DNA from: a virus
Direction: 5' to 3' (one strand)
IMG/VR virus record: IMGVR_UViG_3300017727_000112
Span: 1 to 28,424 of that record
Length of the DNA: 28,424 nt
Shown: positions 8,071-28,093 of the stretch, piece by piece
Position numbering within the stretch: the stretch's first letter is position 1
Layout: every line of letters starts with the position of its first letter
Notes under the pieces: model-generated
The model's input: the letters and a program-made list of their open reading frames with translations, nothing else
Database searches by the model: none
What the model was told of the DNA's origin: nothing
Made by a program: the position numbers and the translations under genes

Positions 8071-8277
8071 ATGGGTTATATTAAAGTTAAAGGGCATGAT
8101 GGTCTCGTTAGAGACGAGACCTCAGGTGCCATAGTCAATCACAGCGATTCTGCTATCCAAGCAAGACGCAAACAGCGACAGCTGAATTCCGCGTTGGACG
8201 ACATAAATATCTTGAAGGATGAAGTCTCTGAAATCAAATCCCTACTTAGAGAGTTAATAAAAAATGCCCGCAATTAA
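8071..8277 (+). CDS. Small conserved cyanophage structural hypothetical protein, C-terminal coiled coil
   Basis: This 68-residue protein begins MGYIKVKGHDGLVRDETSGA, a signature I recognise from small conserved proteins next to fibre genes of T4-like cyanophages; no function is established that I know of. The N-terminal half is a short polar beta-like segment. From about residue 30 it is strongly helical and charged (ARRKQRQLNSALDDINILKD, then EVSEIKSLLRELIKN), with leucine/isoleucine spacing consistent with a short coiled coil. It starts 9 nt after the giant upstream gene and its last 14 nt overlap the start of the next gene, so translation is probably coupled. A role as a trimerisation or attachment adaptor for a neighbouring fibre is plausible but inferred. 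Confidence 0.7.
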   Translation: MGYIKVKGHDGLVRDETSGAIVNHSDSAIQARRKQRQLNSALDDINILKDEVSEIKSLLRELIKNARN

Positions 8278-11200
8278 TGTCGCTAGAACTGATACTTTTG
8301 AAAAGCAAAGGTTAAAAATTAACGAAATTGGATCTCAGATTTTTTCAATTTCTGAAGGTGGTAGTGATCTATCCACAGGTATTTTAAAACTTGGTAATGG
8401 AACAAGATCTAATCCAGCATTAGCATTTGTTAATGAAGAAACTCTAGGGTTGTATAGACCAGATATTGGCACAATTGGATTTATTGCATCGTCAAAAAAA
8501 CTTTTTAATATCTCGGAAGCAGAGGTTACTTCATACAGAGATTTAAAAATACAACAATCAATTCTTCAAACAGCCGGACTTTCTATTACTGCTGGTGGAT
8601 CAAATTACGATGTTGGTATCTACAATGATATTTCTCTTACTGGAGGAACTGGCGCTGGTGCAACTGCAAGTATCACCGTAGAAGAGTTTGAAGGAACACT
8701 AACCAATGTTGGTGTAAATTATCTTCCTGGTAGTTATGCTAGTGTAAGCATTAGTGGTGGTAATGGTACTGGTGCTTTAGTTTCATTTGAAGTAGATGGA
8801 ATAACAGGAAACATTACAGATCAGGGTAGTGCATACGCACCAGGAAATTATACTAGCGTTCCTTTAATTAATGGAAATGGTAGTGGTGCCATTGCGGATA
8901 TTGATATTATTGGAGATACTACTATTACCGGTAATATTTCTAATGCTGGTAGTGGATATGAAGATGGAACTTATGCTGGCGTACAGTTAACTGGTGGAAA
9001 TGGATCAGGTGCAGAAGTAACTATTACTATTGCTAGTAATATTATAGACAGTGTTCAGATTGCATCGAGTGGTGTTGGGTATCAAGTTGGAGACGTATTA
9101 AGTGCTGATCCATTGTTTGACAGTGTTGGAAATGGATTAAATTTTTCTTTTACAGTTGCTAGTGTCGTCAATACCGGTTATGTTTCAAATGTAATAATTT
9201 TAGAATCTGGACAAAATTATCAAACTGGAGATATACTAAGTATTGCTGACAGCAGTGTTGGTTCTGGTGGTGGTTCTGGATTTGAGTTTTTAATAACTTC
9301 TTCGCCGGGAACGGTGCAGAACTTACAGTTTAGTGATAGAGGAACCGGTTATCAAACTGGAGATGTACTGTCAATTGGATCCGGTATAACTGGATTAGCA
9401 TCAACTTTAAAAGGACAAGTATTTGATGTAGCAACTACAGTAAGTTCTGGTTCTGCTAGCATTACAGTCGCTGATACTACTGGCATTATTGCTGGAATGG
9501 AAGTTACTGGCAGTGGAGAAAGTGATGTTGGCACAATTGCTACAGGAACTACTGTTCAGTCTGTCAACAGCGGAACTTCTATTACACTATCTGCCAATGC
9601 TACCGGTAGCGGATCTATTACATTAGCATTTACATCGCAAGGAACTTTAGAAGACATTGTTGTAAGTTCTGTTGTTGGAGTTGGTATCAATGATTTAGTC
9701 ACAGTAACTGGAGGAACTGGTGTTATTCCAGCAGGAACACAAGTTTCTGGTATTGATGAAGTAAATAATATCATTTCATTATCAACCACACCCACAACTG
9801 CTGGTTCGGTAGTTTTATCACTTGTTCCTGTTTACGGGACACCTACAACAAATTTGCAGTTTACTGTTGGAAATACTGGAGCAGTAAGTGATGTTTCAAT
9901 TAGCGATGCTGGAAATGGATATTCAAATGATGATGTCTTAAGTGCAGAACCAAATCAATTAACGCAACCAATTGCATATCCAGTAACTAATGTTGCGATT
10001 GATAAAATATCATTCACCCCTTCCCCTTCCAGTGCAACATTTTCAGTTGGAGATATACTGAGACTTGTTGACGGTGATCTTCAGGGATTTAATATCCAGA
10101 CGCAACCTACAATAACTCCAACAACAACCGGACCATTAACTACTACACTAGATAGCAATTCATTAACAATTAATGTTTCGACCACATCTGGAATTAATGT
10201 TGGTGATTATGTTACCGGTATTGGTTCTGATGTTGGGCAACTTGCTGATAGCACTGTTGTTGCTAATGTAGTTAATGGCACAACTATTACTTTATCAACA
10301 GAACCTGGAATTTCTGGTGCAGCAAATCTTACATTTGCATCAGACGAATCGGGAAATTTTACCAATCTAGCAACTACATCACCAAATGGATCTGGTGCAA
10401 CTTTCAATGTTGTGCGATCGTTTGATGGACAAGTAACACAAGTAGACCTTGTGCAATTTGGAAGATTTTACCAAGATCTAGATACAATTACAATTGCCGG
10501 TAATTTAGTTGGTGGAACTTCTCCTGCACATGATATCACAATTCAAGCAAGTTCAGTCACCACAAACACAGATCAACCTATACACAAGATAATTACTTCT
10601 GGTGGTAATACTGACTATGTTTATGTTGGATATGGATCTACATTATCCAATGGAGATGAACTTTATGTTGTTGGAAACACAGGAACGTTATACACAGTAA
10701 ATACCGCATCAGACCTTCAATATAGATGGTTTATTGATATTGGTTCTGGTTCTGTAATGACACCAAACCTAACATTATATTCTGGATCTACTTACGAATT
10801 TGATTTAACTGATTCTAGTAATATCGGACATGAATTTATCTTATCTGAATTTAGAGATGGTATTCACCCACCAAGTAACATAACTGGTATTTCTGCAAAT
10901 TTAGATATTGCTACCACATCTATTACTGTATCTGATGCTTCCAATTTATTGGTTGGGATGGAGGTAATTGTAACATCTGGATCTGGTGTTCTAAATCCAT
11001 CAACTTTAATTGAAAGTATTGTAGGAAATGTTATCACATTAAGTGAATTGCCTGCTACTAGCGGATTCTCTACCTTACAATTTATAGGAACCGAATACAC
11101 AAATGGTGTGGTTAGATCGGCAGCAGGATTGATAATTTCAGTTATTGATACCACCCCAAACTTATATTATGCATGTTCGATAGGATCTAGCGCACACTAC

Positions 11201-13252
11201 GATGAAGGCGGTGAAGATAACGATGAATCTACTATTACGATAGATTTAAATAATCCGAAAGTTTTTGGATCTGGATTGCTAATTAATGTAGATTCTGTTG
11301 TTCAAACTGATGTTATTGTTTCCGATATCGAATCTGGAACACTTAGTGCAGTTTCAATGACTGCCCCAACAGGAACGTTCCCAACATTAAATTCTTCTGG
11401 GACATCAACGTTATCTAATATTGTTTCCAATTCACTATCAGTTAGTTCAATTAATGGAAATACTATTACAGTAACAACATCTGGAACACTCCAGTTAAAT
11501 GGTGATATTGCTATTGGGTCCACATCACCAATTGTGATGTCTTCCACGTCTGGAGATATCACTACAACAGGAACTTTTAAAACTTTTAATAGTCTTAATG
11601 TTAATGATAGTCTTGTTATCTCAAATAATAATATTTCTTCTGCTGCAAATTTAGATATTAAATTTACTCCAGCAACAGGTAGAGTTGCTAAAATTGATTC
11701 TGTAAGTGCAATTACTATTCCTTCCGGTACTATTAATGAAAGACCTCCGTCTGGGGTTGTCGAAAATGGTTCTATTAGGTTTAATACTGATAGTAGTCAG
11801 TATGAAGGATATAGCGCATCCACAAATTCATGGGCATCTTTGGGAGGTGTAAGAGATATTGATGGAAACACTTATATCTTAGCAGAACTTTCGGCAGGAT
11901 CAAATGATAACATTTTATATTTTTATAATGATGGAAGCAACACATTACAAGTAAATTCTAACTCATTAGATTTTAGAACTGCTAAACAAATATCATCAAC
12001 AAAATTAGGTCTCCCAGCATATACCTTATGGAGTGCAAATACTGCAGTAATTGTTGGACAATATTTAAGATATAAAAATAATGTTTATGAAGTGACTTCT
12101 CCAGGAACAACTGCTTCTGCTGGAAATTTTCCAACTCACACTAGTGGAGTAGCGAACAGTGGATCATCACAACTTACATGGTCTGCTACTGCTGTATCTC
12201 CTCTAACGATTGATGAAGTAGAAGAACTCAGAATTGGTCCAGATAAAAATTGTGCATTAATTATTGGTCAAGAATTAAAATTAGATGATAATAAAATTTC
12301 TACATCTGTCCAGGATCTTATTATTGAACCAAATGCAGGAAAGCAGGTAATTGTTAATTCAACAACACATTTGAAAATTCCTGCTGGAACTGACAACGAA
12401 AAATCTATCGCTCCAGCTGGTCCAGGATCTATTAGATTCAACACCACAACTGTTCAGTTTGAGGGATATAGTGGTGCTAACTGGTCTTCTCTTGGCGGAG
12501 TAAGAGATGTTGATGGTAATACATACATCATTCCAGAAACTGCTCCTGCAGCAAATGAAAATATTTTATATTTTTACAATAATAATATTAACACTATTCA
12601 ATTAACAGAAACTGTTTTAGATTTTACAAGTATCGACACTATCACAACTAGTGGAGGAACAAATCTTGCTCTCGATACACAAACTCTTACATTAAATAGC
12701 AACGCTACAACTATAGACAATAGCGATTCAACTAGAACATTTATTAGCACCACAAAGCAATATCTTGATATCGGTCTTTCTTCTGGATTAAATACAGATC
12801 CTGTTCTTAGATTCGATGATCAAGGCGACATCTTTTTTAATACTACATTTGGGTCTGGTTCTTTTAATGGAGTTAAAATTTTTGACGGAGAATTAAAAGA
12901 ATTTGAATTAGCAGATTATAAAATTAGTTCTGCTACTTTTACATTAGACAAAGGCGGATTGGAATCATCTTCTGTAGTTCTTTATGATAGTACAACTTCA
13001 AAAGGTTGCAAAGTAACAGTTGTTTCCAAATCAGACTCAGGAAAAAGATCTATGGCAGAGTATTCTGTTATAGATAATGGCACTGATATTTTCTTCAATG
13101 AATATGCCTCTTTAAATACTTCTTCTGATCAATTCACATCAGCATTTGATTTTACTTCTTCAACAGAACCAAGAATTACAGTTACATTAACAGATGATCA
13201 CACTATTGCTGATATTATTAACTTCACCATACTAATTCAGGAACTTAAGTAA
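8264..13252 (+). CDS. 1662-residue modular fibre/adhesin virion protein with nested beta domains
   Basis: The N-terminus (about 1-100, MPAINVARTDTFEKQRLKIN...) looks like a virion-attachment region. Residues about 104-370 are tandem GxGY glycine-rich beta repeats (for example GVQLTGGNGSGAEVTITIA). A second, roughly 65-residue module with the pattern ITV.D......GMEV...ITLS appears four times: about 390-456, 463-522, 626-692 and 877-940. Residues about 817-983 form a cupredoxin-like domain interrupted by the last copy (H856, C971, H978 visible). A Y..N.Y..T..GTT...PTH module lies at about 1250-1309, and a roughly 97-residue block (GSIRFNT...GY...W.SLGGVRD.DGNTYI) occurs twice, at 1139-1237 and 1359-1454. 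The C-terminal 120 residues look like a closing beta sandwich. No enzymatic motif is visible. Its ATG overlaps the upstream gene by 14 nt, and the next gene starts 1 nt after its stop. Likely a secreted-side fibre or adhesin of the tail; exact partner unknown. Confidence 0.8.
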   Translation: MPAINVARTDTFEKQRLKINEIGSQIFSISEGGSDLSTGILKLGNGTRSNPALAFVNEETLGLYRPDIGTIGFIASSKKLFNISEAEVTSYRDLKIQQSILQTAGLSITAGGSNYDVGIYNDISLTGGTGAGATASITVEEFEGTLTNVGVNYLPGSYASVSISGGNGTGALVSFEVDGITGNITDQGSAYAPGNYTSVPLINGNGSGAIADIDIIGDTTITGNISNAGSGYEDGTYAGVQLTGGNGSGAEVTITIASNIIDSVQIASSGVGYQVGDVLSADPLFDSVGNGLNFSFTVASVVNTGYVSNVIILESGQNYQTGDILSIADSSVGSGGGSGFEFLITSSPGTVQNLQFSDRGTGYQTGDVLSIGSGITGLASTLKGQVFDVATTVSSGSASITVADTTGIIAGMEVTGSGESDVGTIATGTTVQSVNSGTSITLSANATGSGSITLAFTSQGTLEDIVVSSVVGVGINDLVTVTGGTGVIPAGTQVSGIDEVNNIISLSTTPTTAGSVVLSLVPVYGTPTTNLQFTVGNTGAVSDVSISDAGNGYSNDDVLSAEPNQLTQPIAYPVTNVAIDKISFTPSPSSATFSVGDILRLVDGDLQGFNIQTQPTITPTTTGPLTTTLDSNSLTINVSTTSGINVGDYVTGIGSDVGQLADSTVVANVVNGTTITLSTEPGISGAANLTFASDESGNFTNLATTSPNGSGATFNVVRSFDGQVTQVDLVQFGRFYQDLDTITIAGNLVGGTSPAHDITIQASSVTTNTDQPIHKIITSGGNTDYVYVGYGSTLSNGDELYVVGNTGTLYTVNTASDLQYRWFIDIGSGSVMTPNLTLYSGSTYEFDLTDSSNIGHEFILSEFRDGIHPPSNITGISANLDIATTSITVSDASNLLVGMEVIVTSGSGVLNPSTLIESIVGNVITLSELPATSGFSTLQFIGTEYTNGVVRSAAGLIISVIDTTPNLYYACSIGSSAHYDEGGEDNDESTITIDLNNPKVFGSGLLINVDSVVQTDVIVSDIESGTLSAVSMTAPTGTFPTLNSSGTSTLSNIVSNSLSVSSINGNTITVTTSGTLQLNGDIAIGSTSPIVMSSTSGDITTTGTFKTFNSLNVNDSLVISNNNISSAANLDIKFTPATGRVAKIDSVSAITIPSGTINERPPSGVVENGSIRFNTDSSQYEGYSASTNSWASLGGVRDIDGNTYILAELSAGSNDNILYFYNDGSNTLQVNSNSLDFRTAKQISSTKLGLPAYTLWSANTAVIVGQYLRYKNNVYEVTSPGTTASAGNFPTHTSGVANSGSSQLTWSATAVSPLTIDEVEELRIGPDKNCALIIGQELKLDDNKISTSVQDLIIEPNAGKQVIVNSTTHLKIPAGTDNEKSIAPAGPGSIRFNTTTVQFEGYSGANWSSLGGVRDVDGNTYIIPETAPAANENILYFYNNNINTIQLTETVLDFTSIDTITTSGGTNLALDTQTLTLNSNATTIDNSDSTRTFISTTKQYLDIGLSSGLNTDPVLRFDDQGDIFFNTTFGSGSFNGVKIFDGELKEFELADYKISSATFTLDKGGLESSSVVLYDSTTSKGCKVTVVSKSDSGKRSMAEYSVIDNGTDIFFNEYASLNTSSDQFTSAFDFTSSTEPRITVTLTDDHTIADIINFTILIQELK
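8573..9373 (+). repeat. Tandem GxGY glycine-rich beta repeats (protein-level), about 40-46 residues each
   Basis: About seven degenerate copies follow each other at residues 104-370 of the 1662-residue protein. Two alternating flavours are seen: an early type GSGYEDGTYAGVQLTGGNGS and a later type GTGYQTGDVLSIGSG. The copies share the G.GY, G..Y..V or GD.LS, and GG.G.GA elements. They probably stack as an elongated beta rod. DNA similarity between copies is low, so these are old duplications rather than recent direct repeats. Confidence 0.7.
9431..11083 (+). repeat. Four dispersed copies of a ~65-residue 'GMEV / ITLS' beta module
   Basis: Copies lie at about 9431-9631, 9650-9829, 10139-10339 and 10892-11083. 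Shared elements are a leading strand (SASITVADTTGIIAGMEVTG; ITVSDASNLLVGMEV; LTINVSTTSGINVGDYVTG), a middle G....GT.V..V element and a closing NGTTITLS or GNVITLS strand ending ...L.F. The second copy is the most divergent. I recognise it as a common beta module of phage structural proteins, though I cannot name a family with certainty. Confidence 0.65.
10712..11212 (+). other. Cupredoxin-like domain split by an inserted beta module
   Basis: Residues 817-983 of the 1662-residue protein. The first half (QYRWFIDIGSGSVMTPNLTL, GSTYEFDL, then GHEFILSEFRDGIHPP) and the second half (GTEYTNGVV ... PNLYYACS) together match the phage/marine cupredoxin-like domain, which normally runs DGTH directly into a GSEYTTGV-type strand and ends YYYC..H.GMGG. 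Here the two halves are separated by about 67 residues that match the ITV/GMEV/ITLS module. The terminal ligand loop is altered: C971 is followed by H978 instead of a C-x2-H-x3-M arrangement, so copper binding is doubtful. Confidence 0.55.
11678..11974 (+). repeat. Copy A of an intragenic duplication (GSIRFNT...SLGGVRD.DGNTYI block)
   Basis: Residues 1139-1237 of the 1662-residue protein. It shares with copy B the elements IP.GT...., NGSIRFNTDSSQYEGYSAS, SWASLGGVRDIDGNTYI and NDNILYFYNDG, ending in LDF. The two copies are separated by about 120 residues that contain the PTH module. Similarity is clear at protein level. Confidence 0.75.
12011..12190 (+). other. Small aromatic 'W..N..Y...NVYE.T..GTT..PTH' module
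   Basis: Residues 1250-1309 (LPAYTLWSANTAVIVGQYLR, then YKNNVYEVTSPGTT and FPTHTSGVA). The pattern resembles small carbohydrate-binding-like modules common in phage fibres. A second version occurs near the N-terminus of the long tail fibre at about 14361-14530 (PWASNIIVSENSYRYSQGN, then YQATNTGTTGTLPPTH). Sugar binding is inferred only from the aromatic pattern. Confidence 0.5.
12338..12625 (+). repeat. Copy B of an intragenic duplication (GSIRFNT...SLGGVRD.DGNTYI block)
   Basis: Residues 1359-1454 of the 1662-residue protein. It contains GPGSIRFNTTTVQFEGYSG, NWSSLGGVRDVDGNTYI and NENILYFYNNN, ending in LDF, and matches copy A along its whole length. Its core (G.I.FN/D....F.GY/WDG..W..L) is also echoed in the N-terminal parts of the three short fibres downstream. 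Confidence 0.75.
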
Positions 13253-13799: not shown

Positions 13800-16700
13800 A
13801 TGAGTTTTCATATTAATTCCGACAAAGAAAAAATTAAGGGTGTAAACCCTAAACTTATCGGTGATAATGAGACTACTATTAGAGTTGGCGCGGGAGCTAA
13901 TGAACGAGAAGTAATGCGTTTAGAGCTAGATGCTCAGAGCGGATTACCTCGTATTGGTATTAATAGAACTGGTCAAAGAATTAACAATATTGATATTACT
14001 GCTGGTGGTTCTGGGTATACGTTAGCACCTACTGTTGTTATTGATCCACCACCGGCAGGTGGAACTCAAGCTCTTGCTTCAGCATTTGTTTTTGCAGGAG
14101 AAGTTGTATCAATTGCTGTCAATGATCCTGGTATTGGATATACTTCTGTTCCAAACGTTGTCTTTAATGGTGGTAATGGAGCTGGTGCTGCAGCGACTGC
14201 AGTTCGAGACACTGTTGATTTTGAACTTGATATCAATGGAGCTATCAGAACTTCAACATCTATCATTTCTGATACTGCAAGAATTCTCAACCTAGACATT
14301 GAGAATTTTGTTACTCCAGATTTGAATATGAGGGCACCAAACCTCAAAACATATATGAATGGCACTGGAACGCCATGGGCTTCTAATATTATTGTATCTG
14401 AAAATTCTTACAGATACTCACAAGGAAATATATACCAAGCAACTAATACTGGTACTACTGGAACACTTCCACCTACGCATAAAGATGGTATTGTATTAAA
14501 TGGTGATGTTAACTTTAAACATATTGGTTTTAGAGTATCTGATCCAAATAGTTTTAAATTTTTAGAAACAGGAGAATCTGGTGAGTTCCCACGTTCTATT
14601 ACTCCTCTCCTAGGTGATCGATCAGATAAGATTGCTACTACAGAATACGTCCTCAACCTGGCAACGAATGACGTTGGTGGTCGTGTTTATGTTTCGGCAC
14701 AAATTGGTTCTGATTTAAATGATGGTCGTTCTGCGGTAAACCCAGTTAGAACTATCAAGAAGGCAGCACAGATTGCGTGGTCCACTCCCGGTATTAAAGA
14801 GACCCTTATTGTTTCTGGTGGTGATTATGTAGAAGATAATCCAATCTCACTACCACCCGATTGCTCTGTTGTTGGTGATAACCTTCGTTTGGTTATTATC
14901 AGACCAGCTAACCTTGGAAAACACATCTTCAAGTTTGGTGATAAAAACTATGTTACTGGTGTAACATATAGAGATAGAATTGATGCCAATGGCGACCCAG
15001 TTGGAACTTGGGATTTTGCTATGGTCTTTGACGATAAGCAAAGAGTTCTTATTGATAATGAGGTAAATGGAGATTTTGGCGTAGAGTTTCCAATTGGTCA
15101 TCAAATTTTTGGACCAGAAAGATTCCGTATTGGATTTCAAAATAATACAGGATTGTCTTTATTACAATCGGGAATTCAAGCTGTAGGTTTAAACACTGGT
15201 GCTAGAGCATCTATTTTTGATGTTATTTTTGATACCACTACTGGAAATGATGCATATACTAGTGGTAGTATAGATGTACAAGTAAAGGCAGGTTCGCCAA
15301 TTCAAGGTGATCAATACAATTATGTGACGTCAGCAAGTACTGGGGGATCTTTATCTTTAACAATCAGTCAAACTGCTGGCGAAAATATTCTTAGATTTAC
15401 AACAGATCCAACTTCTACTATTCCAGTAAGTGCATATGTATATCTAGATGATGCCGATGACTCCAGTTTTACTCAAGGATATTATCAAGTAACAAGTATT
15501 GATGATACTAATGCCCCAACATATTGGGATGTTCAATTTATTGCTCTTCTAGATTCTTCTGACTGGGATACATCTCAAGCAGAAACGATTACAATTAATT
15601 CTGCAACTCCAGTTGTCAACACAATTGATACTATAAGTTTAAAATCTATTAGAGCTGAAGGTGAAGTTGTATCTTATGATGAAGATATTACTTCAACTCT
15701 TCCTATCTCTAGAATTGATTTCTCTTTACAGGGAGATCCAAGTATTACAACAGGAGGATTCCAAGAATCTCAATTTGGTAGTTCGGAAGATATTGGTGGT
15801 ATTGTATTCTACACAAGCGCACTAGTTGGTAGAACCAATACACACGAACTAAAAGAAGGTCAAGAAATTATTCTTGAGAATTTACCTACTTCAAATCCTA
15901 ATTTATCTTTCTTGAATGGCAAGCAAAGAATTTATAAAGTTCTAGAAGATGCTGATGGTCGTGCCAGAAGATTTGTAATTCCGAAAAAATTCCCGGCATT
16001 TACAGTTGCTAACTTTAATCCAGGTGAATTTGCTACAGTAAAATCATATACAAAAAGTGTTACTTTATCATTACTTAACTCACCAAACAAATTTCCTCTT
16101 GCATCTCCCGTCGAAAGAAGATATCAAGATGCTTGTCAGTTAATTAGAAACAATAGAGAGTTTATTGCTGATGAAGTAGTTGGTATTATTAACGATCAGT
16201 TTAAATCAGAATATTATTCTGTATACAATTTAGATGCAGTTAATAATACTTTTGATATTTTCCTAGGAACACTTGATCACCCAAACACATACGTTAGTGG
16301 CGGTACTATAACTTTTAGTGGTAATTCTTACAATATTAGTGATTTTGTATATGATACATCTATAACTGGTGTTGCTACAATTACTACTACTGCAGCTGCT
16401 ATATCTGCACTGTCAGAAGATGACACTGTTCAATTAGCAGATATCTTAATTTCTTGTTCTGCTGGTCAGAAAATTTACCCTGCATATAGTGCCCCAACAA
16501 ATTCAAACATTGGAACAAATGGAGATGAGCAGTGCAGACAAGATGTTATTCATTTTTTAAATGCTCTTGTTCGAGATCTTGAATTTGGATCCAACCACAA
16601 TATTCTTGAAGCTGCCGGTAAGTATGTTGTCGATGGTAAAATTGCATACATCGAAGATGAAATTTTACAAAATGTACGTGCCATTGAATATGCCAGAGAA

Positions 16701-19700
16701 TTGGCAATTTATGCAATGTGTAATTGGAGGATTAAGGATAGAACAATTAATGATCCTGTTTACACAGTAAAACATTCTACACTACCCAGATATATTGATG
16801 ATACTATAATTTCAGCAACTGCAGGTGATCCTGCATGTGATGATGTGAGATCTGCTATTGATACATTATCATATCTTTGGGCAGATGTTATCACAAATAA
16901 TGCGTCTGGAACATATCTCGATGCTGCTTATCTAATTGCTAAGAACGCAGATTTAATTGCGGATCAAGCACTAATCAATACAGAAACAACATATCCAACT
17001 TTAAATCTTTCAAACATTCGTCAAAGAAAATGTCGTAGAGATATTAGACTTGTAATTGAAGGTCTTGTAAGAGACTTAGTTCTTGGAGGAAACCATGGTA
17101 TTGTTTCTGCTGCAGAATCGTATTTTAGTGGAACTGTTCTTTCTGGAATTCCAGAAGCGCAATTGGATGAAACCAGATATGCATTCCAGCAAGTAAAAGA
17201 TCTTGCTATTGCAGCAATGCGTAATTGGTCCGATGGCGATGTTGTACCAACAACACCAACAGGATCTACATATGCTCCAACTACTGGAGTATTTACAGTA
17301 ACTTTCCCCAATCTTGCTATCATACCATCCCTTCAGGATAGGATTGCTTTTGCTGAAGGAGCTATTACATATAGTTGTGCTGCTAACGGTGGTGGTAATG
17401 ACGCAAGTCCCTATAGAACTGATCTAAATTTTGGACAAAGTTTCGCGCTTACAAATGTTTCATCTTCTGGAGGAAATACTACAATTACTGCTAATGTTGG
17501 AGTTGCTGGATCTAACACAGATGTACATACGTTCGTAAGTGCCTTATCAAATGGAACTAAAATTATTTACAATCCATTTGCTACCACTTCACCTATTCCT
17601 AAGTTTGAGGATTGGAGTATTCTTGAAGACAGTGCAAACCCATCTTGTGCTGCTATTGCTTCTGCTATCACAACATCATTAGCAACTTTCGATAGTATTT
17701 TAGAGTATGCTTCTGATACTGTTAATGGTTCTGCCCCCGGTTCTATTACTCAAACTTTTGGAACTTTATTTGATTTTGCTGCTATTATCAATTATCCAGA
17801 TAGTTTTATCTACGATTTTAATAATCAAAAAATGGCAGTTCGTGGTAGATTTGATGATCTACCAATCATTGAAGCATCACCATATACACAGAATGCTTCT
17901 ATTATTTCTTTCAGAGGTGGTGGTGGTGCTCTAATCGATGGAGACAAAGTTAAGCAACCTAACTGCCCCTTCGCTGGTCTAGAACCAGACGGAACAGCAT
18001 CGTTCCCCAATCAGGGTAAGTCGATGGTTGCTGCGGCATTCACGATTGTCTCCTTTGGTGGCACAGGATATAAAGTTATCAATGATGGTTATACCCAATT
18101 AGTTTCTGTCTTCGTTATCTTCTGTCAAGATGGTGTTCTTTCTGAATCTGGTGGATATGCATCTATTACAAACTCCGCCACAAACTTTGGTACGTTTGCT
18201 TTAAGAGGAACAGGTTTCCGTAAAGACGCATATGAGTTTGATGCAGGAATTATAAACACTGTTTCACAGACTCCAACTGGTAGAACAACTCTTCGTATTG
18301 GAGATATTGGAAGAGAACCATTAGAACATTACATTGTTAAACTTGATGGATATAGAAATGCAGATCCAGATAAAGAATTCTTTATTGATGCTGTATCTGA
18401 AGTTACTGTTGGTCCACCATTTTCTGCAACACTTACTATTGATGATGGTATAGGAAATGGTCTTTCTTTGATTAGAGAGTCTGATGGAGCTACTATCTCC
18501 GGTTTAACGGCACTGCAGCAAGCACTGACGCCTGCAGGAGCAACAAACGCAACTATAAGATTACACAGACCATCTATTGTTAATAGTTCTTCTCATACTT
18601 GGGAATTTGCTGGTTCTGGTAATAATTACCTTGCACTACCAGAGAACGGTGGAACTAAAGTTGAAGCAAATGAACAAGTTTCTGAAAATTATGGTAGAAC
18701 ATATGTTTCTGGTACTGACGAACTAGGAGACTTTAAAGTTGGTACATTCGCGAGAATTGAAAACAGAACTGGTAATATTACTTTCACAGGTACTGTTACA
18801 ATTTCGGAAGTTGAATTCCTGAAATTGAAAGGTGGCGATGTTGTTGTTACTGGTTTTGATAACTCTAATACTCTTGGTGGTGCCAATACCAGTGATTCTA
18901 AACTACCCACTCAGAAAGCAGTTAAGGATTATATTACCAACAACCTTGGTCCATATATCAACAAACCATATTCTACGAACGCTGTTCCTAGAGCACTAGT
19001 AGAACTTACCGACTCTGGTAAGATTTCCATTGACCAAATTCCAGCGTTAAGACCTTTCCAAGTCTTCACTGTTCCTGATCTAGCAGCAAGACTTGCTCTT
19101 GAAGGCGCACTTGCTGGTGACATTGCAATTCAACAGGGACTTGCTCCACTCAACTTTATTTCTTCTTCTATTGACACAGGCACCGATGAAATTACAATTC
19201 TAAATCATGGTCTTACCAATGCTAAGTTGGTTACTTATAGAGAAGTGACAGGAGCAACAGCACCAACACCCCTCAATAATGCACAAGAGTATTATGTAAT
19301 TGTTATTAATGCTAATACTATTAAGTTAGCAGCATCTGAGGTTAACGCAAATTCTAATACCGCCATTGATATTACTAATGCTGGTTCCGGAAGCCACATT
19401 TTAGAACCAGAAGGATCTACACAAACATTGATTCTAAACAATGATCTTGATAGTTTGTTCTTGGCATTTGCAGTAGATTCAAGTCTCGTATTTAATATAA
19501 ATGATGTTTATACAGGTACACCTTCCACAGGTAGAATTCAAGCTACAGAATATAGAGAGGGTGTAGTTCACAAAATTAACATCTCAAACGGTGGTTCTGG
19601 ATATACAGTTGCCCCTACTGTAAGTATTAGTGGTGGCAATCCTGTTAGTGGTGCTGTTCCAGCATCTGCGACATGTAGCATTGCTAACGGCGAAGTTGTT

Positions 19701-22700
19701 ACTATCACAATTGAAAACAACGCTGGTTTAGTTGGTGGTTCTGGATATACAACACAACCAGTAGTTACTATCGCAGCACCTCCTGGAGCTGGCACACAAG
19801 CAACTGCGGATGCATTTATTGAAAGCAGATTGTATGGCGATATTGTTAACAATATCAAGATGGTTGATACTGATACTTTTGATGATAGTGATTCACCGAG
19901 TGCAAATACGGTTAATATTACCAGAGTTGTTAATACTTCTTCTAATGATGTTAATAACTGGGTATCTTTATCATCAAACCAAATTGCTGCTTCTGATATT
20001 ACTTCTGGTGTTATCGAAACAGATAGATTAGCAACCGGTGGTGCTGCAAACTCCTTCACATTCCTACGTGGTGATCAGAACTTTGCTCCTGCTGTACAAT
20101 CTATTAAAGGTGCTGAAACAAGATACTTTGCAAGACTATTTACGACAGCATCAATAGGCGCAAGTGCCTTTATTTTCCAATTCAATCAAAATGCTTTAAT
20201 TGGTCATGTAGTTGTCGCTAGTGTAGCAGGAATTCCAGCAAATACAACTATTAACGGTGTTTCAACTGTTGCTGGAATCACAACAGTTTCCATTAATAAT
20301 CCTATCACTGCTGATATTGCATCAGGAACAGTTATAGAATTTGAAAGAGGTAGTTCCCCTCTAACATTTGACTCTTCAAACACAACTGGCAATTTTATTG
20401 ATAGCGTTGTTATTGCCAACCCTGGTAGTGGTTATACTAATGGACAATTTTTTGATATTAGTCTAGATGGTGGCGCAGGGGTTGATCTTAGAGCTAATTT
20501 AATTATCTCTGGTGGTGAAGTTACTGACGCTACCGTAACAAACGCTGGTAGTGGTTATACTTCCGACTTCCAAGTCACTCCAAATCCAGCTACTATTGGT
20601 GCTGGATCTAACTTAGTTCTTCTTGCAAAAGTTAGCACGGTTAATAAACAGTTTGCTAATGTTGCTATTGATGTTCAGAGAGTTTCTGATCTGACTATTT
20701 CTGCTGATGAATTTGGATCTATTGGTGTTGCCAGATTCAGAAAATCTCAGTTTAATATTGGTCAAGAAGGCAATGGATCTATTACAATTAAAACAGGTAA
20801 TCAGAGTGGACTTGACGCTGATTTACTTGATGGTGCTCAAGGGGATTTCTACTTAGACGGCACTAATTTTAGTGATAGAAGTATTGGACCAGACAAACTT
20901 AAAGATGATACTTATGGTATTAATATTGGTGGCAGATCTGGTAATACTCTAAGACTGCTGACAGGTACTAGCAATCCAGCATCTAATTTATCACCAAGTG
21001 AATCAGTTGAAGGTGTATCAGTCAAAACTGTATTTAATAGTTCTAATGGTCTATTGACTGCATTCCCAAGTGTAGATACTGGAGCTTCTAACTCCGCCAA
21101 GCATTTGGTGATGACTCTCCGTAATGGTGGGTCTGGTATCGACACTTCGTTTGGTGGTGTAAGACAACTTGCGTTTGCAAATGATGATAGACTTTATTTA
21201 CGTGGTTCCGGTGATGCTGTATCGTCTTACGGATCTTGGTATGAGATTTGGAACTCAGGAAACCAAGGTATTGATTCTGGATTAGATGCCGATAAACTTG
21301 ATAACAAACAGGGTGTTTGGTATCAAGATGGTTGGAATATTCAGAAAAATGAAATCTTTGATACAAGACTTCCATCATGGAGAAGTTCTACTAAGTTCAG
21401 AGATAAGATTGAAATTAAATCTTTCTCTGGATCAGATGTCTCTTATAGAATTCTAGTAAGGCAAGTCCTTGATGCTGCAGCAGGAGGAGATTTTTCACCA
21501 GGATCTCAAATCAATATTTACAATATTAACAAGCAAGATATTGGTGATTTCTTCATTGATCTTGCTCCACAATTAAATGATGCTAATGATTCTGCTAATA
21601 GTTACACAATGCTTATTGGTAGATTGGCATCTGGTGGTAATCTTGAGGATGCAGTATTCCTTGGTGTTGCGGGTGATGAAAGACGCTTTGAAAATTATGA
21701 AATTTATGACAGCAACACAACACAGTTTGCTGAACTTGGAAACAATTCTGGTGATGGATTCTTAAGACTTGGAAGATATGATGGTTTGTTCTCTACAAGT
21801 CCATACATACACTTCAATTCGTCTCAAGCACAAGCAGTAGATAACAACGGAGATCCTACTTACAACTCTGCTATTATTGCAACTGGCGGTACTACTGCCG
21901 AGGGATCTGGTAGTCTTGAGTTTAAGGTCGTTGATGAAAATGAATTGACAGTTAATAACAATATCATCTGGAACGCAGGTAATGTTGCATTTAATATTAG
22001 TAATGTAGTTTCTACATCTTCACTGAAATCTGCTGTGATGAGAGATACCAACGGCGATTTTGCTGCTGGAACAATCACAGCAAGTCTAATTGGTGCTGCT
22101 TCTCTCAACGTATTGAAAACTGGTGATACCATGACCGGTGGTTTGACTATCACTGGTAATAACAACCTTAACATCCAAGGAACTGGTACTCTCAATGTTG
22201 GTGGTAATACTACATTAGGAGCAGATTTAACCGTTGATAGTGGAACTCTATATGTTAATTCCACAAATAATAGAGTTTTAATTGGTCAAACTACAGAATC
22301 AAATCCAGTTAAGTTTAATGTTTATACCTCACTAGAATCTTCAGAATATGAAAATGGTGCTGCACTATCTTCACAACAATCAGTTTACCAATCAAGTGTA
22401 TACAACCAAGTAAATGGTGGAGAATCTGGTATTGTATTACAGCACGGTGCTTCTGGTGCTGCCCAATGGGGTATCACAACACACAGAACAAGTGCTAATG
22501 TTGGCGAACTAATTATTAGAACCAGAACAGCCAATGCTACTTCTGCAACACGACTCAAAATTTCTAATGGTGGCAATATTCTTCCTGGTGCTGATAGCGA
22601 CCAAGATCTTGGTAGTAATTCTGTAAGATGGCAGAATATCTATAGTGATATTACGTATGTATCTAATAGTGTAAGGATTGCCGATGGTGTTGCAAACCAA

Positions 22701-23384
22701 GAAGCAGACTTACAGTTTAGGGGTGGTGGTACTGGCGCAGGTGGTGGTAGAGGATTCCGATTAGGTTCTAATATTGGTGGTGGTGCTGATGTTTTCGAGA
22801 TCTATTCATCGCAAACATTAGGCAGTGATGACTGGAAGAGTCTAGCATCTCCAAATACTTTACCACCAGCATTTGCAATTCAAGGAGAAAACAACAGAGT
22901 AGGTATTAACACAAATCAATTCCAAGGAACTGATACAACTACCACTCCAAATGTCGTTAGAAACTATCAACTCAACATTGATGGTGATGTTAACTTCAAT
23001 GGAACACTATTCCAAAATAATGCAGAATTTGTAACTTCCAGATGGACAGAATCTCCAAATGGCGATAACATTTATAGAGCATCATTTGTTGGTATTAACT
23101 TTGTCCAAAGTGGAACCAAAGAACCAGCATTCCCATTGGAAATTTATGGTGGGTCTAATATTCTTGGATCTGACTACACAAATGAAGTTAACTCCCATAC
23201 TCTTCATGCCAATGGAGATAAGCAATGGTTGGATAGTTATGGTGTTTTCAAAGCAAATAGAAATACTTGCGAAGAAAATATCACAATTCCACAGAATACT
23301 AACTGTATGACTGCTGGACCAGTATCCATAAATAACAGTGTAATTATTACAATTGCTGACGGAGCTTCTTGGAGTATAGTATAA
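13800..23384 (+). CDS. Long tail fibre / receptor-binding protein, 3194 residues, with pectin-lyase-like region
   Basis: Domains in order: N-terminal attachment region; two GxGY beta modules (nt about 13981-14205); aromatic PTH module (about 14361-14530); a right-handed beta-helix (pectin-lyase-like) region opening with RVYVSAQIGSDLNDGRSAV, GGDYVEDNPISLPP (from about 14675). Helical insert modules follow, including a duplicated CRxD..........VRDL.....N pair (16533-16730 and 17031-17231), then a second beta-helix-like block with GYTQLVSVFVIFCQDG (about 18016-18270). The distal half has fibre-shaft signatures: GRTYVSGTDELGDFKVG, LPTQKAVKDYI (about 18910), GLDADLLDGAQGDFYLDG, GLDADKLDNKQGVWYQDGW, MRDTNGDFAAGTITASLIGA and KTGDTMTGGLTI. 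The C-terminal tip (TIPQNTNCMTAGPVSI...GASWSIV) is a fibre end common in marine phages. Likely the main host-contact fibre. No S74 chaperone tail is present. Confidence 0.85.
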   Translation: MSFHINSDKEKIKGVNPKLIGDNETTIRVGAGANEREVMRLELDAQSGLPRIGINRTGQRINNIDITAGGSGYTLAPTVVIDPPPAGGTQALASAFVFAGEVVSIAVNDPGIGYTSVPNVVFNGGNGAGAAATAVRDTVDFELDINGAIRTSTSIISDTARILNLDIENFVTPDLNMRAPNLKTYMNGTGTPWASNIIVSENSYRYSQGNIYQATNTGTTGTLPPTHKDGIVLNGDVNFKHIGFRVSDPNSFKFLETGESGEFPRSITPLLGDRSDKIATTEYVLNLATNDVGGRVYVSAQIGSDLNDGRSAVNPVRTIKKAAQIAWSTPGIKETLIVSGGDYVEDNPISLPPDCSVVGDNLRLVIIRPANLGKHIFKFGDKNYVTGVTYRDRIDANGDPVGTWDFAMVFDDKQRVLIDNEVNGDFGVEFPIGHQIFGPERFRIGFQNNTGLSLLQSGIQAVGLNTGARASIFDVIFDTTTGNDAYTSGSIDVQVKAGSPIQGDQYNYVTSASTGGSLSLTISQTAGENILRFTTDPTSTIPVSAYVYLDDADDSSFTQGYYQVTSIDDTNAPTYWDVQFIALLDSSDWDTSQAETITINSATPVVNTIDTISLKSIRAEGEVVSYDEDITSTLPISRIDFSLQGDPSITTGGFQESQFGSSEDIGGIVFYTSALVGRTNTHELKEGQEIILENLPTSNPNLSFLNGKQRIYKVLEDADGRARRFVIPKKFPAFTVANFNPGEFATVKSYTKSVTLSLLNSPNKFPLASPVERRYQDACQLIRNNREFIADEVVGIINDQFKSEYYSVYNLDAVNNTFDIFLGTLDHPNTYVSGGTITFSGNSYNISDFVYDTSITGVATITTTAAAISALSEDDTVQLADILISCSAGQKIYPAYSAPTNSNIGTNGDEQCRQDVIHFLNALVRDLEFGSNHNILEAAGKYVVDGKIAYIEDEILQNVRAIEYARELAIYAMCNWRIKDRTINDPVYTVKHSTLPRYIDDTIISATAGDPACDDVRSAIDTLSYLWADVITNNASGTYLDAAYLIAKNADLIADQALINTETTYPTLNLSNIRQRKCRRDIRLVIEGLVRDLVLGGNHGIVSAAESYFSGTVLSGIPEAQLDETRYAFQQVKDLAIAAMRNWSDGDVVPTTPTGSTYAPTTGVFTVTFPNLAIIPSLQDRIAFAEGAITYSCAANGGGNDASPYRTDLNFGQSFALTNVSSSGGNTTITANVGVAGSNTDVHTFVSALSNGTKIIYNPFATTSPIPKFEDWSILEDSANPSCAAIASAITTSLATFDSILEYASDTVNGSAPGSITQTFGTLFDFAAIINYPDSFIYDFNNQKMAVRGRFDDLPIIEASPYTQNASIISFRGGGGALIDGDKVKQPNCPFAGLEPDGTASFPNQGKSMVAAAFTIVSFGGTGYKVINDGYTQLVSVFVIFCQDGVLSESGGYASITNSATNFGTFALRGTGFRKDAYEFDAGIINTVSQTPTGRTTLRIGDIGREPLEHYIVKLDGYRNADPDKEFFIDAVSEVTVGPPFSATLTIDDGIGNGLSLIRESDGATISGLTALQQALTPAGATNATIRLHRPSIVNSSSHTWEFAGSGNNYLALPENGGTKVEANEQVSENYGRTYVSGTDELGDFKVGTFARIENRTGNITFTGTVTISEVEFLKLKGGDVVVTGFDNSNTLGGANTSDSKLPTQKAVKDYITNNLGPYINKPYSTNAVPRALVELTDSGKISIDQIPALRPFQVFTVPDLAARLALEGALAGDIAIQQGLAPLNFISSSIDTGTDEITILNHGLTNAKLVTYREVTGATAPTPLNNAQEYYVIVINANTIKLAASEVNANSNTAIDITNAGSGSHILEPEGSTQTLILNNDLDSLFLAFAVDSSLVFNINDVYTGTPSTGRIQATEYREGVVHKINISNGGSGYTVAPTVSISGGNPVSGAVPASATCSIANGEVVTITIENNAGLVGGSGYTTQPVVTIAAPPGAGTQATADAFIESRLYGDIVNNIKMVDTDTFDDSDSPSANTVNITRVVNTSSNDVNNWVSLSSNQIAASDITSGVIETDRLATGGAANSFTFLRGDQNFAPAVQSIKGAETRYFARLFTTASIGASAFIFQFNQNALIGHVVVASVAGIPANTTINGVSTVAGITTVSINNPITADIASGTVIEFERGSSPLTFDSSNTTGNFIDSVVIANPGSGYTNGQFFDISLDGGAGVDLRANLIISGGEVTDATVTNAGSGYTSDFQVTPNPATIGAGSNLVLLAKVSTVNKQFANVAIDVQRVSDLTISADEFGSIGVARFRKSQFNIGQEGNGSITIKTGNQSGLDADLLDGAQGDFYLDGTNFSDRSIGPDKLKDDTYGINIGGRSGNTLRLLTGTSNPASNLSPSESVEGVSVKTVFNSSNGLLTAFPSVDTGASNSAKHLVMTLRNGGSGIDTSFGGVRQLAFANDDRLYLRGSGDAVSSYGSWYEIWNSGNQGIDSGLDADKLDNKQGVWYQDGWNIQKNEIFDTRLPSWRSSTKFRDKIEIKSFSGSDVSYRILVRQVLDAAAGGDFSPGSQINIYNINKQDIGDFFIDLAPQLNDANDSANSYTMLIGRLASGGNLEDAVFLGVAGDERRFENYEIYDSNTTQFAELGNNSGDGFLRLGRYDGLFSTSPYIHFNSSQAQAVDNNGDPTYNSAIIATGGTTAEGSGSLEFKVVDENELTVNNNIIWNAGNVAFNISNVVSTSSLKSAVMRDTNGDFAAGTITASLIGAASLNVLKTGDTMTGGLTITGNNNLNIQGTGTLNVGGNTTLGADLTVDSGTLYVNSTNNRVLIGQTTESNPVKFNVYTSLESSEYENGAALSSQQSVYQSSVYNQVNGGESGIVLQHGASGAAQWGITTHRTSANVGELIIRTRTANATSATRLKISNGGNILPGADSDQDLGSNSVRWQNIYSDITYVSNSVRIADGVANQEADLQFRGGGTGAGGGRGFRLGSNIGGGADVFEIYSSQTLGSDDWKSLASPNTLPPAFAIQGENNRVGINTNQFQGTDTTTTPNVVRNYQLNIDGDVNFNGTLFQNNAEFVTSRWTESPNGDNIYRASFVGINFVQSGTKEPAFPLEIYGGSNILGSDYTNEVNSHTLHANGDKQWLDSYGVFKANRNTCEENITIPQNTNCMTAGPVSINNSVIITIADGASWSIV
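13981..14205 (+). repeat. GxGY beta module pair near fibre N-terminus
   Basis: About residues 61-135 of the long fibre: INNIDITAGGSGYTLAPTVV, then VVSIAVNDPGIGYTSVPNVV and a GGNGAGAAATA turn. The module is the same type as in the DUF4815-type protein and the 1662-residue protein. Confidence 0.65.
14675..15200 (+). other. Right-handed beta-helix (pectin-lyase-like) opening region of the long fibre
   Basis: The pattern GGRVYVSAQIGSDLNDGRSA, V.TIKKAAQIA, KETLIVSGGDYVEDNPISLP, SVVGDNLRLVIIRPAN is the classic entry into a parallel beta helix, as in DUF1565/pectate-lyase-like proteins. In phage fibres such helices may be either structural or polysaccharide-degrading. I cannot identify catalytic residues, so activity is left open. 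Confidence 0.6.
16533..16730 (+). repeat. Helical insert module, copy 1, in the long fibre
   Basis: About 66 residues (CRQDVIHFLNALVRDLEFGS, NHNILEAAGKY ... ELAIYAMCNWR). It aligns with copy 2 about 500 nt downstream through CR.D......LVRDL..G.NH.I..AA..Y and LAI.AM.NW. Predicted mostly alpha-helical, unlike the beta-rich surroundings. Confidence 0.7.
17031..17231 (+). repeat. Helical insert module, copy 2, in the long fibre
   Basis: About 67 residues (CRRDIRLVIEGLVRDLVLGG, NHGIVSAAESY ... DLAIAAMRNWS), the partner of copy 1. Related shorter helical pieces flank both copies: ACQLIRNNREFIADEVVGII near 16130 and AYLIAKNADLIADQALINTE near 16927. The whole insert may therefore be a duplicated two-part unit. 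Confidence 0.7.
19569..20625 (+). repeat. Further GxGY beta modules in the mid-distal part of the long fibre
   Basis: Two groups are seen. One is at about 19569-19815 (HKINISNGGSGYTVAPTVSI, then GLVGGSGYTTQPVVTIAAPP). The other is at about 20398-20625 (IDSVVIANPGSGYTNGQFFD, then VTDATVTNAGSGYTSDFQVT). They are separated by non-repeat fibre sequence. Confidence 0.65.
23269..23384 (+). other. Fibre C-terminal tip module
   Basis: The last roughly 38 residues contain NTCEENITIPQNTNCMTAGP followed by ISINN-type strands and a GASWSIV end. This terminal block (TIP.N.N.M.AGP..I......I.DG..WSIV) is shared by many marine phage fibre and adhesin proteins. Here it carries two cysteines 13 residues apart, which could pair or bind metal. 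Confidence 0.6.
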
Positions 23385-24499: not shown

Positions 24500-24763
24500 A
24501 TGACACAACCATTTGCTGACTATGATGCGTTATATGAAGGACGCATGGAATCTCTCAAGAAAAAGAGAGAAGAAAAATTTAAACAACTAGATGGAGATTT
24601 TTTCAAAGCTCTAGAAGTTAATGATACAGTATCTCAAGCAAGAATTGCTGCCAAGAAAAATAAATTAAGAAATTTTCCACAAGAGATGGAAAAGAAAACT
24701 TTTCTTTCAAGAGATGATATAATTCGTTATGAACCAGAGTGCTTTAGAAATGAAACAGTGTGA
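24500..24763 (+). CDS. Small charged helical protein (87 aa), possible fibre chaperone or adaptor
   Basis: I do not recognise a named family. The sequence (TQPFADYDALYEGRMESLKK, KREEKFKQLDGDFFKALEVN, ARIAAKKNKLRN) is strongly helical, rich in Lys and Glu, and has few hydrophobic stretches. Small helical proteins of this kind next to fibre genes are often tail fibre assembly or attachment factors, which is only a contextual suggestion. It lies between a short fibre and a 2OG-Fe(II) oxygenase gene, whose preferred ATG overlaps its last 14 nt, so the two are probably translationally coupled. No clear Shine-Dalgarno precedes its ATG; the 19-nt gap upstream shows no promoter box. Confidence 0.65.
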   Translation: MTQPFADYDALYEGRMESLKKKREEKFKQLDGDFFKALEVNDTVSQARIAAKKNKLRNFPQEMEKKTFLSRDDIIRYEPECFRNETV

Positions 24764-25325
24764 ATATACAACTAGTGCCGGAAAAAAGATCTATGTTTTT
24801 CGTGATGTTTATGACTATGATCGACAATTAAATTTAATTGATTGGTGTGTTAGACAAAATTATAAATTCCGACCATCCAACGAAGGTGTATTGATTGGAC
24901 TAAAAAGTGATTTAGTTTTGAGCGCACATCCAGGATTAGAACTTCCACAATTAGCAGAACAATTTTCTCTAAATGACGAAAAGTTAAAACCAATAGTAGA
25001 TATTATTGGGAATAAACGAGAGATGGTAGCACATTGGATTAATGCTAATATTTCAAAAACATCTCCACATTTTCACCCCGATAGTTTTAAAAAAGGATCT
25101 TTGTCTATGCTTTACTATGCAAATGTAAAGTGGGACCTTTCGTGGGATGGATATACAGTATGGGCATCAGATGATTTAAACAACATCGAGCATGTAGAAT
25201 TTCCAGAACCAGGAAAAATTGTTATTTTTGATTCTAGTATTCCACACAAACCAACTGCTGCTGGACCAGAAGCACCGTCTTTTAGGTATACAATGAATAC
25301 AGTTTGGGAACCTATAAATAGTTAA
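24750..25325 (+). CDS. 2OG-Fe(II) oxygenase (HxD type)
   Basis: A 191-residue protein from ATG 24750 (an in-frame ATG at 24729 would add 7 residues). The metal and cosubstrate triad is visible: H109-x-D111 in SPHFHPDSF, distal H166 in SSIPHKPTA, and R179 in SFRYTMN, with the double-stranded beta-helix core strands LSMLYYANVKW and GKIVIFDSS between them. The preceding INANISKTSPHFHPD stretch is typical of phage and marine 2-oxoglutarate oxygenases. These enzymes hydroxylate proteins, sugars or small molecules using Fe(II), O2 and 2-oxoglutarate; the substrate here is unknown. They are frequent in cyanophages. The start at 24750 is preferred because homologues as I recall them begin with a short xxEYTT.AGK.I.VF.DV segment. 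Position inside the short-fibre cassette suggests fibre or host-surface modification (inference). Confidence 0.8.
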   Translation: MKQCEYTTSAGKKIYVFRDVYDYDRQLNLIDWCVRQNYKFRPSNEGVLIGLKSDLVLSAHPGLELPQLAEQFSLNDEKLKPIVDIIGNKREMVAHWINANISKTSPHFHPDSFKKGSLSMLYYANVKWDLSWDGYTVWASDDLNNIEHVEFPEPGKIVIFDSSIPHKPTAAGPEAPSFRYTMNTVWEPINS

Positions 25326-27469: not shown

Positions 27470-28093
27470 ATGAGTTTTGATAATTTTATTATGGAAGTGC
27501 CTGGAGCATTTTCAAAATCTTGGTGTAACAGCGTAATTGAACAATTTGAAAAAGATAAAAATCTTCAATTGGATGGAACATGTGGATCAAATATAAATGG
27601 GTCATCTACTGTAGATAAAAAAATAAAAGATGGAACAGAAATTTGTGTTAACCCAGAATTACTAGGAAATCCTGAATGGAGACCATTACTAGAACCTTTT
27701 CAAAAAATTTTAAAAAAACATATAAAAAATTATTGTAAAAGATATTCCTTTGTGGATGAAAGTAATGATACAGAAAGCGGATTAAATGGAATTGCAAAAT
27801 TGGAACTAGAACCAGAATTTAATATTCAAAAATTTTATCCAGAAAAAGGATTTTTTGTTTGGCATGTTGAAACTGGTTCTGATACCAATTCATATAGACA
27901 ACTTGTTTGGATGATATACTTAAATGATCTTAAAGATAAAGGAGGAACTCTTTTTAAATTTCAAGATATTAGATGTAAACCACAAAAAGGAAAATTAGTT
28001 ATATGGCCTGCTGGTTGGACACATTTTCATAAGTCGGAAATTTCTCCATCAGAAATTAAATATATTGCAACAGGGTGGTACAAATACGCATAA
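27470..28093 (+). CDS. 2OG-Fe(II) oxygenase, prolyl-4-hydroxylase-like, with HxE motif
   Basis: A 207-residue protein. Visible landmarks: NIQKFYPEKGFFVWHVETG with H132-x-E134 as the likely metal pair, LVWMIYLND, GGTLFKFQDI, then GKLVIWPAGWTHFHKSEIS with H185 (or H187) as distal ligand, and EIKYIATGWY with K197 as a possible 2-oxoglutarate contact. This is the P4H-like 2OG-Fe(II) layout (PF13640 type), but the usual HxD is HxE. I recall the same WH.E pattern in marine phage members of the family, so it is probably functional. It is clearly different from the HxD oxygenase 2 kb upstream, so the cassette carries two distinct oxygenases. Its stop codon lies inside a late-promoter-like CATAAATA. 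Substrate unknown. Confidence 0.75.
   Translation: MSFDNFIMEVPGAFSKSWCNSVIEQFEKDKNLQLDGTCGSNINGSSTVDKKIKDGTEICVNPELLGNPEWRPLLEPFQKILKKHIKNYCKRYSFVDESNDTESGLNGIAKLELEPEFNIQKFYPEKGFFVWHVETGSDTNSYRQLVWMIYLNDLKDKGGTLFKFQDIRCKPQKGKLVIWPAGWTHFHKSEISPSEIKYIATGWYKYA

Follow-up and report, generated by a model that had tools for sequence, protein, structure and literature searches.

Computational analysis of a 28.4-kb virus record (IMGVR_UViG_3300017727_000112; all 28,424 nucleotides of it are called the window here), a structural-gene stretch of a marine T4-like cyanophage, revealed a cupredoxin-like domain with a second beta domain nested inside it. We consider it probable that this nested cupredoxin, with its tail-tube-type insert, has kept a His-Cys-His-Glu site that likely holds one metal ion and stiffens a fibre or baseplate-attached protein. 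Positions 10712-11212, singled out in a preliminary description, encode residues 817-983 of a 1662-aa ORF product, and the cupredoxin halves reach slightly past these limits, covering approximately residues 808-1005 (Table 1). The sequence motifs, C971 and H978, the lack of a Met and the separation of the halves by about 70 residues were all found as that description had given them. Profiles of the three parts score strongly on the window (8e-23 for the insert; Table 1 for the halves), the window itself being one row of the training alignment.

Table 1. Features of the nested domain and its host protein in the window
Feature	Positions	Strand	Evidence
Host-protein ORF, 1662 aa, phrog_6005 virion structural protein	8264..13252	+	phrog_6005 E=0, 1802 bits
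Free-standing insert copy (residues 386-457)	9419..9634	+	insert profile 2.5e-19; 39% identity to nested copy
Second free-standing copy, weaker (residues 464-520)	9653..9823	+	insert profile 2.7e-5
Third free-standing copy (residues 623-692)	10130..10339	+	insert profile 3.1e-15
Outer cupredoxin, predicted first half (residues 808-870)	10685..10873	+	half-A profile 5e-27; AF2 strands in model 16-54
His856, first metal-ligand position (GHEF)	10829..10831	+	H in 70/70 Cys-containing relatives
Inserted beta module (residues 871-942)	10874..11089	+	AF2 block pLDDT 96-98; model 64-135 matches phage tail-tube domains 8eci, 9n71
Outer cupredoxin, predicted second half (residues 943-1005)	11090..11278	+	half-B profile 1.6e-25; aligned with first half to cupredoxins
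Putative metal loop C971-x6-H978-x2-E981 (CSIGSSAHYDE)	11174..11206	+	recurrent C-x5/6-H-x2-E class, 27/96 distinct domains

The host protein is a member of the phrog_6005 family of T4-like cyanophages. The profile match extends over most of its length, and the gene has the same neighbors, in an order common to S-H9-2, S-CAM4 and others: a large structural gene upstream, then a small ORF, the phrog_6005 gene and a phrog_5449-type gene. In many orthologues a second cupredoxin, free of any insert, lies near residues 250-370; the window protein does not have it. This second domain carries C-x2-H-x2..4-M in 53 of 57 entries, one of the other four being a truncated nested domain, and the form is mostly C-x2-H-x2-M (L004, L015, L042, L050, L073 and others). 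Elsewhere in the window, positions 13800-23384 encode a 3194-aa fibre-like protein with no Pfam match, a stretch of which resembles the inserted module by eye; the insert profile gave no match to it. Two fibre-like genes are flanked by genes for proteins with similarity to 2OG-Fe(II) oxygenases, one above the Pfam cut-off (27470-28093, 39.8 bits) and one below it (24729-25325, 22.5 versus 27).

The AF2 model of the nested domain, built from an alignment with 48 IMG/VR homologues, has a pLDDT of 90.8 and a pTM of 0.82. With the insert skipped, VIA-align superposes the joined halves on the cupredoxin domain of a nitrite reductase (6tfo; Z 6.8, 91 residues, 3.0 Å), with 2dv6 (Z 6.7-6.8 for the pair) and small laccases also matching. 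Overall the matches of the outer domain (model 10-193) give middling Z values of 5.3-6.8 over ∼90 residues at 2.9-4.0 Å, and among the matches listed all those that span both halves are cupredoxins. The BFVD model of the ACG-2014e orthologue, made independently, is in agreement (TMq 0.81 across 176 columns), and an uninterrupted homologue modeled from a separate alignment (AF2 pLDDT 80.9) matches rusticyanin with a Z of 9.0 (2.2 Å, 90 residues). A Foldseek search of the PDB with the window model returned no match below E 1e-3, and no convincing match came from searching PDB sequences. On these models the halves pack together, the outcome that the check set in the preliminary description called for: residues 808-870 and 943-1005 are predicted to make up a single cupredoxin domain, one loop of which accommodates a distinct second domain, as first proposed. 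That the halves are instead two small beta domains in their own right, one on either side of a third, with no split domain at all, would fit the fact that the profile of each half scores alone, but is extremely improbable: the AF2 and VIA-align comparison packs the halves as a single cupredoxin, and the S-WAM2, L170, L171 and podovirus homologues are continuous over the junction.

The interrupted form is widespread among cyanophages. A tblastn search of phage genomes found it in 46 records at 31-52% identity, every one of them a Synechococcus or Prochlorococcus phage or a cyanophage by name. When the window protein is aligned to 17 orthologues, the insertion falls at one site, after the strand with the first His (between DG-I-H and G-T-EYT in the window), in all but S-WAM2, the sequence of which passes from ...SQTQDG straight into PGEY.... 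No relatives came up in IMG/VR when the window domain was the query. A manually built consensus of the two joined halves recovered 65 loci, and the insert is present in every complete domain among them. A scan seeded with S-WAM2 returned mostly interrupted relatives together with two further uninterrupted ones, L170 and L171, and the insert occupies the same site in 93 of the 96 distinct phrog_6005 domains, with S-WAM2, L170 and L171 continuous across the junction. This recurrence at one site in the 46 cyanophage records and the IMG/VR loci indicates that the nested architecture is not due to chance. S-WAM2 is a long branch at the edge of the unrooted tree, a placement compatible with either gain or loss of the insert.

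The uninterrupted domains on which the preliminary description drew do exist, and outside phrog_6005 they are common. They include 422 IMG/VR relatives of the tail fibre domain of Fussvirus and are also found in S-TIM5 and the pelagiphage Baldr, and in tail fibres of podoviruses and pelagiphages. Six further uninterrupted phage-type cupredoxins (L228-L233), with 74-87% identity to the Fussvirus domain, come from Pelagibacteraceae single-cell genomes and MAGs; these contigs, filed as SAR11 genomes, are possibly phage DNA in single-cell assemblies.

The inserted module (model 64-135) matches tail-tube proteins of the phages Bridgette and Mystique in VIA-align (8eci, Z 8.3; 9n71, Z 8.0), superposing on 8eci at 1.9 Å over 67 residues and so sharing the beta-domain fold of the tail tube, although ubiquitin-E1 domains reach Z values of 5.3-6.7, which leaves the tail-tube assignment a modest margin. 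It shares this fold with the phage tail-tube accessory beta domains at 18-21% identity, but unlike them it is nested in another domain and is also found free in a fibre-like protein. The insert profile, which was built from nested copies, detects free-standing copies upstream in the same protein (Table 1) and similar ones in orthologues. Identity between the nested copy and two of the free copies is only 38-39%, so the nested copy is a long-standing member of this protein's module family rather than the product of a recent duplication. In a tree of nested and free modules, based on a short alignment, the nested copies cluster, with 9 changes compared with 33 when shuffled, a pattern compatible with a single insertion as well as with several.

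The window domain has His856, Cys971, His978 and Glu981 aligned to the canonical ligands of its relatives. His, Cys and His are thus present in the order canonical for type-1 copper, and in place of the axial Met (or Gln) there is Glu981, overlooked at first reading, which lies three residues past His978 where relatives have Met. Among the 96 distinct domains, 70 contain the Cys, and all 70 keep both His residues, with Met in 43 and Glu in 27 at His+3; the 26 domains without the Cys are also without the loop His, and in 19 of these the first His is gone as well. The loops divide into C-x2-H-x2-M (35), C-x6-H-x2-M (7), C-x10-H-x2-M (1), C-x5-H-x2-E (16) and C-x6-H-x2-E (11, window included), although these class frequencies are biased since the patterns of the first scan included one Cys-His motif (YCENHPNM). 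Glu at His+3 is found only with the long loops, x5 or x6. The metal loop of L060 is longer still (C-x10-H-x2-M), with all four ligands kept.

The co-conservation of the ligands is all-or-none. It is significant after clustering at 80% identity (Fisher p 8e-10) and at 60% (4e-7), and also in the second scan alone, the search patterns of which held no Cys-His motif (3e-6 at 80%, 1e-3 at 60%). In a tree built from the downstream region of the protein, without the domain, the Met, Glu and lost states require ∼14 changes; the Glu class is spread over this tree, and its supported branches force at least four Glu changes, whereas the tree of the domain itself, which has few columns, forces only two. 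Strictly independent pairs on supported branches are never discordant, in numbers too few for significance. Domain exchange between phages could contribute to these changes of state. Since most metal-competent sequences in this set are interrupted, and S-WAM2 is uninterrupted yet has lost its metal site, insertion and metal loss are uncoupled. Many relatives are without the whole site, and the metal is therefore dispensable for the fold.

These results bear on the proposal in the preliminary description that the metal loop of the window domain has decayed. Metal-free versions of the domain certainly exist, the site being wholly lost in the 26 relatives without the Cys, and the window domain is without the Met and reads YYAC at a place where YYYC or YYFC is seen in others; the nested fold could thus be real and its site degenerate, with Cys971, His978 and Glu981 as leftovers in a metal-free spacer or adhesin. 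Drift, however, would leave mixed and partial sets, whereas the Cys-containing domains have both His and nothing but Met or Glu at His+3, and the Glu class is scattered over the tree. Interrupted relatives such as L051 and L042, moreover, retain the full type-1 set at the window's own spacing (C-x6-H-x2-M). Hence simple decay of the loop is not supported, and we regard a degenerate site as unlikely. The related suggestion that the domain is possibly copper-free is compatible with the sequence but is the less good reading of a set that belongs to a recurrent His/Cys/His/Glu class.

We favor the following account of the kept site. A tail-tube-type beta module would have entered the cupredoxin loop at an early stage in the evolution of this family of cyanophage proteins, with the outer and inserted domains folding independently and the two halves packing into one sandwich. 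The site would have been kept as His856/Cys971/His978/Glu981, making it a version of the type-1 site in which the loop is longer and the ligands are His-Cys-His-Glu. From the pattern of residues we infer metal binding, the identity of the metal and its structural role: the putative site most likely binds a single metal ion, for which copper is the default guess, and the bound metal would clamp the loops and let the domain serve as a rigid connection within an extracellular fibre or a protein attached to the baseplate. Copper is known to change the mechanical unfolding of azurin (PMC5792602), and by analogy a metal staple that stiffens the fibre is our best guess. The inserted module would be carried out sideways and probably projects as extra surface, possibly with an adhesin role. 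A redox-active virion cupredoxin, passing electrons or copper to or from the surface of the host or its photosynthetic chain, would suit the canonical type-1 ligand sets of many relatives, but we recognized neither an enzyme domain nor a redox partner in the protein, the site has been lost repeatedly and the domain sits amid repetitive beta modules, all of which makes such a role very unlikely.

Cupredoxins and nested domains are both already known, and our search of the open literature turned up no paper on a cupredoxin from a phage tail or virion. A profile search of Pfam and NCBIfam gave no significant family for either the nested or the uninterrupted domain, and our data point to a broadly distributed virion cupredoxin family missing from both collections. 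More tentatively, the virions of marine phages may carry metal-binding cupredoxins that form a large and so far uncatalogued family; one of its branches would naturally use a His-Cys-His-Glu site, with Glu where the axial Met usually lies and with a longer loop, that has arisen or been exchanged several times, in a domain also hosting the nested tail-tube-type module. The interrupted and uninterrupted alleles together make this a clear-cut natural case of domain nesting, and the Met/Glu series at a copper-type site is a natural one that is open to direct testing. If virions do carry copper or another metal, this would bear on phage stability and on the trace-metal biology of the ocean.

Three groups of known copper proteins provide the closest comparisons. 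A natural His2CysGlu red copper site is found in nitrosocyanin (PMC9241007). The same four residue types make up the putative window site. The Glu of nitrosocyanin is contributed by another part of the fold, and we found no close sequence relation between it and the window domain. AcoP, a green cupredoxin copper protein with the ligand arrangement C159-x6-H166-x4-M171 (PMC4059628), has the same long C-x6-H spacing as the window domain and is among the best Foldseek matches of its model; unlike the window protein, it is a single-domain respiratory protein with an axial Met and with x4 rather than x2 after the second His. The type-1 copper proteins rusticyanin and plastocyanin share the fold, and their ligand order, His followed by Cys-x-His-x-Met, recurs in many of the phage relatives, whereas the window domain differs from them in lying within a giant virion protein, in bearing an insert after the strand with the first His and in having Glu for Met.
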